Shown here in pieces: positions 7,117 through 57,839 of a stretch of 64,000 nt of DNA. How positions within the stretch are numbered: position 1 is the stretch's first letter; each line of letters begins with the position of its first letter. Under the pieces are notes generated by a model, which saw only the letters and a list, made by a program, of their open reading frames with translations, was not told where the DNA came from and made no database searches. This stretch comes from Halobacteroides halobius DSM 5150. Lineage in GTDB: Bacteria > Bacillota > Halanaerobiia > Halobacteroidales > Halobacteroidaceae. A program made the position numbers and the translations under genes. The stretch is taken from contig NC_019978.1 in the NCBI RefSeq assembly GCF_000328625.1, positions 248,001-312,000 on the forward strand, read 5' to 3'.

Positions 7117-8433
7117 ATGAATAACAAAAAAATTATATCAATGGCATTAACTTTAGTTTTATTAGCAGGTTCATTATTCTTTGTTGCAGATACTAGTAAT
7201 GCTTGGTGGATTTTTGGTGATGATGAAGCTAAAGAAGAAAAAAAATCTGGTAAGGTGACAATCGAGGTTGCTACTTGGGCAGATGAAGCTTTAAAAGCAA
7301 AAGGTGGTGTCATTGATCAATTTGAGGAGAAGTATCCAAATATTAATGTAAAAGTTTCTAAAACAGCTTTTGCTGACCATCATAAGACATTAATAACTAA
7401 AATAGCAGCTGGTGGGGATGTTCCTGATGTAGCTTTTATTGAAGTTTCTTATGTTGGTAATTTTGCTGCTAAAGGTGGTTTTGTAGATTTATCTAAGGCT
7501 CCTTACAATGCAGATCAATACAAAGAAAATTATGTTGATTATGCTTATAGCCATGCTAAAACTACTGCTGGTAAATTAATCGCTGTACCTACAGATACTG
7601 CTCCAGCAACTGTTTATTATCGTAAAGATCCTCTTAATAAATTAGGATATACTAGAGCAGATATGCAGACTATGCAAGACTGGATTGAAGCAGGAAAGAA
7701 ATTTGCTAAAGATACAGATGGTGATGGAAGTAATGATAGATGGTTAATAGCTGATGCAGCAAATATTTTCAATATATTTGCTAGAAGTGGTGAGAATCGA
7801 TATTTTGATGAAGAGGGTAACTGTATAGTTACTGCGGAAAGATTTGTAAAGGGTATGAAGATTGCTAAAAAGATAAGAGATTTAGGTCTAGATGCTGGTG
7901 TGCCAGCTTGGAGTGGTGAATGGGTTGCAGCATTGAAAAATGGAACTGTATTAATGGAACCAACAGGAGCTTGGTTAGGTGGACATTTAAAAGGTTGGAT
8001 TGCTCCTAAAGATAAAGGTGAATGGAGAGCAACTAATTTACCTAATGGAATGTACGCTCAAAATGGTGGTTCTTTTGCTGGAATTCCATTAGATGCAAAG
8101 CATAAAGAAGCAGCTTGGAAGTTTATTAAGTTTTATTCTACAAATACAGATATTCAAGTTCAAAACTTTAAGGTAGCTGATACCTTCCCAGCTTGGAAGC
8201 CTGCTTTTGATCATCCTATTATGGATAAACCAGTTGAGTATTTAGGAGGACAAAAAGCTAGAAAAATGTGGGTTAAGGCAGCTAGGAAGATACCAACTGT
8301 TGTGACAAATAAGAATGATATGATTGCTGAGCAAATTGTAGGTAATGCTTTATCAGCAGTTTTAGAAAATGGTAAAGATCCAGTAAAAGCATTAAAAGAT
8401 GCTAAAAAACTAATTGAAAGACGAGTTAGGTAA
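7117..8433 (+). CDS. ABC sugar-binding protein (family 1, MalE-like)
   Basis: This 438-residue extracytoplasmic solute-binding protein starts with a classical Sec signal peptide, residues 1 to about 29, ending TSNA before WW. There is no lipobox cysteine, which suggests a free periplasmic protein and hence an outer membrane. The mature part has the family fold (VTIEVATWADEALKAKGG, later AWKFIKFYS). Aromatic residues near WSGEW and GAWLGG may stack on sugar. It heads an operon with two permeases and GH1/GH94 enzymes, so a beta-gluco-oligosaccharide is the likely ligand (inference). AAGGAGG precedes the ATG. Confidence 0.92.
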   Translation: MNNKKIISMALTLVLLAGSLFFVADTSNAWWIFGDDEAKEEKKSGKVTIEVATWADEALKAKGGVIDQFEEKYPNINVKVSKTAFADHHKTLITKIAAGGDVPDVAFIEVSYVGNFAAKGGFVDLSKAPYNADQYKENYVDYAYSHAKTTAGKLIAVPTDTAPATVYYRKDPLNKLGYTRADMQTMQDWIEAGKKFAKDTDGDGSNDRWLIADAANIFNIFARSGENRYFDEEGNCIVTAERFVKGMKIAKKIRDLGLDAGVPAWSGEWVAALKNGTVLMEPTGAWLGGHLKGWIAPKDKGEWRATNLPNGMYAQNGGSFAGIPLDAKHKEAAWKFIKFYSTNTDIQVQNFKVADTFPAWKPAFDHPIMDKPVEYLGGQKARKMWVKAARKIPTVVTNKNDMIAEQIVGNALSAVLENGKDPVKALKDAKKLIERRVR

Positions 8434-56707: not shown

Positions 56708-56776
56708 AGAAAATATTTTAATTGTAATCCCTTAATTTAACAGTCTTATATTTCCTTTTTAAATTACTAGATTTTA

Positions 56777-56785
56777 TGATATAAT
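56777..56785 (+). promoter_or_regulatory. extended -10 promoter before the small MazE-like gene
   Basis: TGATATAAT is an extended -10 element (TG-N-TATAAT) at 56777-56785, with a poor T-rich -35 region. It lies about 84 bp before the ATG at 56869. Confidence 0.5.
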
Positions 56786-56868
56786 GTTAGTGGTTAATGT
56801 GGAAAGTTAAGACCTTATAAGATAGATATCTCTAAGTTCTATAATTCTTAATATGAGGTGATAAGTTT

Positions 56869-57033
56869 ATGGGCCAAGGTCGTCAGCTGGCAAATAAAAC
56901 TCAGGGTGAGCAGGACAAGGCAGATAGTTTAAAAAGGCGCTTAAAGGAAGGGTATGCCCAAATGGCAGAACTCAATTTAAGGTTGGCCCAGGAGGGATTA
57001 ATGGCTGATAGAGAAGCATACCAAAGAATATAG
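56869..57033 (+). CDS. 54-residue MazE-like mini-antitoxin (putative)
   Basis: The small gene starts at ATG 56869 after GAGGTGA and ends at TAG 57031. The second half, RLKEGYAQMAELNLRLAQEG, matches the C-terminal segment of the mazE-like gene 200 bp downstream ([20 protein letters not shown]). This is the part that in Bacillus EndoAI-type antitoxins inserts into MazF. The ribbon-helix-helix DNA-binding part is missing. It has its own likely promoter and terminator, so it is not just a shadow. It may be a DNA-binding-free MazF inhibitor or a degraded antitoxin. Function inferred only from similarity. Confidence 0.6.
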   Translation: MGQGRQLANKTQGEQDKADSLKRRLKEGYAQMAELNLRLAQEGLMADREAYQRI

Positions 57034-57036
57034 AAT

Positions 57037-57065
57037 AAAAAGAGACGCTATTAGCGTCTCTTTTT
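57037..57065 (+). terminator. terminator of the mini-antitoxin gene
   Basis: AAAAGAGACGCTA and TAGCGTCTCTTTT flank a single T and end in T5. It begins 3 bp after the stop codon. Confidence 0.85.
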
Positions 57066-57228
57066 ACTCTATATATTTATGATGTATATTTTAATTATTA
57101 TTTGTGGAGACTACTATTAGATAATATATTAAATAATAAATGTAATTTTGCCGTTAATTTACATTCACAGTATTAGGTGAACTTAAATATATTATCATAA
57201 ATTGTAACAGTATAGGGAGGGGTCCTTT

Positions 57229-57486
57229 TTGAACAATTTGCAAAAGGCCATGGTTACTTTACAGGATAATTTTATAAGGGAAATGGATAAGGCTAAAGAA
57301 GTTCAACATGAGGAGATTAGTAATCGGTTGGTTATTGAGCGATTAAAGGAAAGGAAAGTTAAAGAGGAAATGAAGACAGGATATTTAGATATGGCTAAAT
57401 TGAATCTTAAATTAGCTACTGAAAATTTCAGGTTAGAAAATAAAACTTTTTTTAATTATGAGGCCAGATTAGCGGAGTGTGATTAA
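57229..57486 (+). CDS. MazE/EndoAI-type antitoxin
   Basis: The 85-residue protein starts at TTG after GGGAGGGG. The N-terminal half ([20 protein letters not shown] and [16 protein letters not shown]) has the strand-helix-helix pattern of a CopG/RHH DNA-binding domain, though quite diverged. The C-terminal half, [16 protein letters not shown] to ARLAE, is the MazF-binding segment of EndoAI-like antitoxins. It neutralises the endoribonuclease encoded 2 bp downstream and probably represses the operon as a complex. The two genes are tightly coupled. Confidence 0.85.
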
Positions 57487-57488
57487 AT

Positions 57489-57839
57489 ATGGGGGTTAAA
57501 CGAGGAGACGTTTATTATGCAGACTTGAACCCAGTTGTGGGTTCAGAACAGGGTGGTATTAGACCTGTATTAGTTATTCAAAATGATATCGGCAATAAAT
57601 ATAGTCCTACAGTAATTATAGCGGCTATTACTTCAAAAATAGAAAAGGCTAAATTGCCGACTCATGTAGAGATTGATGGTAGCAAATGTGATTTAAAGTG
57701 TGATTCAGTCGTTCTACTAGAACAAATTAGAACTATTGATAAAAGAAGGTTAAAAAGAAGGGTAACTCGGTTAAATAGTGAAATGGTTGCTAGGGTAGAT
57801 GAAGCCTTGCAGATAAGTTTAGGATTGATAGAGCTTTAG
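57489..57839 (+). CDS. MazF/EndoA endoribonuclease toxin
   Basis: The 116-residue MazF-fold enzyme is close in length to Bacillus EndoA. It has [20 protein letters not shown] at the start (RGD and the GSEQ loop with catalytic Arg near RPVLV), then [13 protein letters not shown] and [17 protein letters not shown]. It cuts mRNA at short sequences when the antitoxin is lost. It is the second gene of the pair and is followed within 35 bp by an unrelated amidohydrolase. Confidence 0.93.

Follow-up and report, generated by a model that had tools for sequence, protein, structure and literature searches.

The window, that is, the whole 64,000-nucleotide stretch of Halobacteroides halobius DSM 5150 DNA analyzed here, carries a short MazE-like gene directly ahead of a mazE–mazF pair (Table 1). 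The 54-residue product of this open reading frame (ORF), MGQGRQLANKTQGEQDKADSLKRRLKEGYAQMAELNLRLAQEGLMADREAYQRI, is identical to the adjacent MazE at 16 of 49 positions by BLASTP (E 2e-8 as a single comparison), and its segment GYAQMAELNLRLAQEG matches a 16-residue segment of that MazE at 10 positions. The NCBIfam model antitoxMazE_Staph (NF041459) also matches the ORF (E 4e-10), at 39.6 bits, a score that does not reach the model's cut-off of 108 bits for staphylococcal MazE. These matches bear out an earlier note on this DNA, which had described a 54-codon ORF with a segment resembling the MazF-binding part of an antitoxin. The note was also right that the small protein has no DNA-binding domain: a Pfam search at E values up to 1 returned no domains of any kind, and AlphaFold2, run with 39 sequences, predicted a single helix over residues 3–53 (mean pLDDT 86). 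The putative MazF-binding helix spans approximately residues 21–42.

Table 1. Coordinates of the short gene, its expression signals, and the neighboring mazE and mazF within the window.
Feature	Position	Strand	Evidence
Short-gene promoter, TTTAAA-16 nt-TATAAT with TG ahead (extended −10)	56758..56785	+	sequence
Ribosome-binding site, GAGGTGA	56855..56861	+	sequence
Short MazE-like gene, 54 aa, ATG start, without RHH domain	56869..57033	+	sequence, profiles
Short-gene intrinsic terminator, GAGACGC..GCGTCTC + T run	57028..57073	+	sequence; position conserved across order
mazE, 85 aa, starting at TTG; MazF-binding segment at the C-terminus intact; six residues deleted in the RHH part	57229..57486	+	
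mazF, PemK/MazF toxin, EndoA-like, probable target of the short protein	57489..57839	+	PF02452, E 8.6e-39

The extended −10 promoter, ribosome-binding site, and terminator that had been assigned to the short gene are all present. Three overlapping terminator-like sites occur at the locus, compared with 0.4 expected from shuffled sequences. No known RNA family scored above its gathering score here, and the weak matches fell mainly on the terminator hairpin. The MazF site UACAU is not seen in the short gene, where only 0.4 occurrences are expected, so there is no signal of avoidance.

The neighboring toxin matches PDB chains 4me7_A and 7bxy_A and is the sole PemK/MazF match in the genome. In its partner MazE, the RHH stretch NRSEFIREAMKLY of relatives is shortened to ISN-RLVI, with six residues missing, and a Pfam search returned no RHH match; one relative with the full region scored above the RHH_1 cut-off and another just under it. 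The Halanaerobacter copy of MazE is likewise diverged. Judged from sequence, neither antitoxin of the H. halobius genome may bind DNA well. Since the MazE of the window has no recognizable RHH domain, autoregulation of mazEF is an assumption at this locus, and the "autoregulated mazEF operon" of the earlier note is unsupported.

Conservation across Halanaerobiia

We surveyed the gene by profile searches of relatives and of 59 genomes of the class, followed by inspection of the sequence flanking mazF in another 58 genomes; orthology across the class was judged by position, promoter, and terminator. A version of 47–58 residues lies directly 5′ of mazE–mazF in 45 of the 59 sampled Halanaerobiia genomes, so the conservation of ORF and position that the earlier note had proposed as a check is found. 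The same profile at relaxed settings recovered no short gene in families f5 and f7 or in genome G034, and no mazF was found in G042 or G054; in G053, the contig ended too close to judge. As it is missing from f5 and f7, the gene is dispensable. The upstream neighbor is a SMUBP2-like helicase gene in most loci, and in family f6, where a different gene stands upstream, the link between the short gene and mazEF is still kept. Pooled over 12 independent pairs, dN/dS is 0.20, indicating purifying selection, and Gly28 and Tyr29 are invariant among the 45 orthologues.

The expression signals are conserved as well. Just upstream of the short gene, 39 of the 45 orthologues carry an 11–12/12 match to TTGACA-(17/18)-TATAAT/TATACT, a score reached by none of the 100 shuffles made per locus, and a GAGGTG-like site precedes nearly all of them. 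A script placed a terminator behind the stop codon, or overlapping it, in 35 orthologues (33 in the main run plus G008 and G010), and visual inspection added several others. Among the Halanaerobiales families, the terminator stem is encoded within the closing codons of the ORF (GATGAGAC..GTCTCATC-T run), and the DET-like C-terminus of these proteins is therefore partly dictated by terminator-encoding codons; loci L121, L122, and L112 provide examples. In genus g22 (L113, L118, L135, and L136), no terminator is left and 14–62 nt separate the short gene from mazE, so that the short gene probably heads an operon of three genes. Separately, the gap between the short gene and mazE at L122 (genome G040) contains a long inverted repeat, GGCACAAATATCT..AGATTTGTGCC, which was not seen in the corresponding gap of the close relative G039.

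Basis for a probable role in MazF inhibition

AimX of phage phi3T is reported to bind and inactivate MazF and to displace MazE; both proteins place the same helix in a groove where the subunits of the partner dimer meet, and Met14, Tyr18, Glu20, and Met21 of AimX are identical in MazE and make contacts (PMC10769878). The short-gene profile matches the AimX chain 8anv_C (E 9.6e-4) and 4me7_E, the B. subtilis MazE in a MazE–MazF structure (E 1.4e-4). The equivalent residues of the window protein, and hence its presumed contacts, are Leu25, Tyr29, Gln31, and Met32, with the M/L, Y, and M positions of the groove helix occupied by Leu25, Tyr29, and Met32. Across the 45 orthologues, the Met14 equivalent, four residues before Tyr29, is Met in 32 and Leu in 13; the Tyr18 equivalent is always Tyr; and the Met21 equivalent, three residues after Tyr29, is Met in 37, Ile in five, Leu in two, and Phe in one. 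The Glu20 equivalent is Lys in 31, Gln in 10, Glu in three, and Arg in one, and this predominance of Lys and Gln speaks against an inhibitor. In favor of one is a single draft genome, G043 (family f10; locus L124), which retains an intact mazF frame along with the short gene, its RHH mazE being reduced to the last few codons ahead of mazF; the genome gives a single profile match. The short protein must suffice in G043 if the MazF there is active.

As a separately transcribed and conserved gene with a MazF-binding helix, the ORF is best read as encoding a stand-alone MazF inhibitor that would add antitoxin independently of the mazEF operon, and we consider this reading likely. The solo inhibitor proposed by the earlier note stands as far as the separate, conserved gene and its helix are concerned; MazF binding, inhibition, and a role in setting the threshold are what we infer from the sequences. 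In the proposed mechanism, the protein would be expressed from a sigma-A-type promoter of its own, with a dedicated terminator closing the transcript, and one long helix would insert its L/M-x3-Y-x2-M face into the MazF dimer groove, blocking the RNase in the manner of the MazE C-terminal tail and AimX. Owing to that promoter and terminator, the protein would provide basal antitoxin irrespective of mazEF transcription and could not repress mazEF, thereby raising the threshold for MazF activity.

We also considered that the helix was recycled from MazE to bind a different target. Halanaerobium and genus g22 have an eroded LNLxLAxE half and keep only the KIAxxMxxGYxK(M) half of the segment, with the contact helix, as a change of target would allow; MazF binding may be weaker or altered in these lineages. 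However, the positions equivalent to known MazF contacts fall within the retained half, and each of the 44 orthologue loci not truncated by a contig end has mazF as a neighbor, leaving a new target unlikely.

The arrangement of the locus also invites the interpretation that the short ORF and its terminator form a leader or attenuator controlling read-through into mazEF in cis, with a peptide of little import. An ORF followed by a terminator just ahead of mazE is indeed what most genomes present, and in family f1, which includes the window, the gap holds no strong mazE promoter, so that read-through could matter there. This interpretation nevertheless strikes us as quite improbable, given the strong purifying selection on the protein and on its MazF-contact residues, the 11–12/12 promoter that mazE has for itself in the gap in 22 of the 38 genomes tested, though in none from f1, and the survival of the short gene in g22, where no terminator remains.

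It is very improbable that the peptide acts as an anti-decoy, shielding MazE by tying up phage or cellular proteins able to capture it, as AimX does with phi3T_93. AimX does use one helix for both MazF and phi3T_93 (PMC10769878), but the short gene is chromosomal, fixed, and linked to mazF. Finally, a decayed duplicate of the antitoxin gene, the alternative that the earlier note itself had raised, is hardly credible and was rejected: the gene lacks an RHH domain and adjoins mazE, yet it has 45 intact orthologues across the class, the low dN/dS reported above, and a conserved ribosome-binding site, promoter, and terminator. The short gene is thus probably a real extra brake on the MazF toxin and not a broken copy.

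Comparison with known systems

The earlier note was aware of no described family of this form, which is incorrect. S. aureus MazE is a 56-residue antitoxin without an RHH domain, and its operon is reported not to be autoregulated (PMC4041440), while phage AimX is a stand-alone MazF-binding protein of 51 residues (PMC11323111, PMC10769878). The short protein resembles S. aureus MazE in lacking RHH and in having the same MazF-binding helix, with 53% identity over 36 residues (15–50). The genetic arrangement differs: in S. aureus, MazE is the sole antitoxin and is encoded by a gene that shares 4 bases with mazF, whereas the two-gene operon directly before mazF that marks staphylococcal MazE is not found here, where a terminator follows the ORF and a second antitoxin gene, mazE, intervenes between it and mazF. 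AimX and YosL are similar in another respect, AimX likewise being a stand-alone, small MazF inhibitor with a MazE-like helix. AimX is, however, phage-encoded, part of arbitrium, and also a ligand of phi3T_93, in contrast to a chromosomal gene fixed beside mazEF in 45 genomes. The toxin-binding tail is shared with B. subtilis EndoAI (PDB 4ME7), and the adjacent MazF closely matches EndoA; EndoAI, though, is approximately 94 residues long, carries an RHH domain, and shares an operon with its toxin, whereas the short protein has no N-terminal RHH domain.

Outside the class, we examined 289 other genomes of the phylum and detected no combination of a short gene and an RHH mazE; the profile matches there are RHH-type MazE, generally a single one per genome. 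Neither the matches listed nor the multi-match genomes include an extra short gene, and the secondary matches look like chance, bar a few in frames of 93–192 residues. In a few Clostridia met in a scan of species genomes (L145, L146, L155, L168, and L202), an RHH-less MazE of 61–75 residues has the same helix as the short protein but replaces the usual RHH MazE directly before mazF, with no second antitoxin. RHH-less MazE therefore occurs in several lineages, and the two-antitoxin layout appears to be particular to Halanaerobiia in this sample.

A phage or plasmid origin was rejected, as just one phage and one plasmid record match, both from Staphylococcus. Viral contigs contained no confirmed relative of the short gene. 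The phage match lies in OR845010.1, an unannotated record named as a staphylococcal phage, where the stretch at 7418–7525 is 53% identical to the query and is probably a staphylococcal mazE.

Conclusions

What is new, on our best reading of the comparative evidence, is a putative second MazF antitoxin that is chromosomal, class-wide, and separately transcribed beside a complete mazEF. We found no paper describing such a second antitoxin in a literature coverage that omitted most subscription journals. We give an even chance to the broader proposal of a three-gene, two-antitoxin MazF module, in which a constitutive, DNA-binding-free antitoxin would set a fixed threshold, mazEF would add the regulated part, and lineages could drop either antitoxin.

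In models of type II toxin–antitoxin systems, a single antitoxin couples neutralization with repression; these functions are seemingly separated here, with a pure toxin-binding helix in a gene of its own kept by selection across the class beside an ordinary operon. Lineages that carry both antitoxins, only the short one (G043), or only the RHH form (f5 and f7) offer a comparison for the contribution of autoregulation. In this context, the short gene would represent a host-encoded counterpart to phage AimX.
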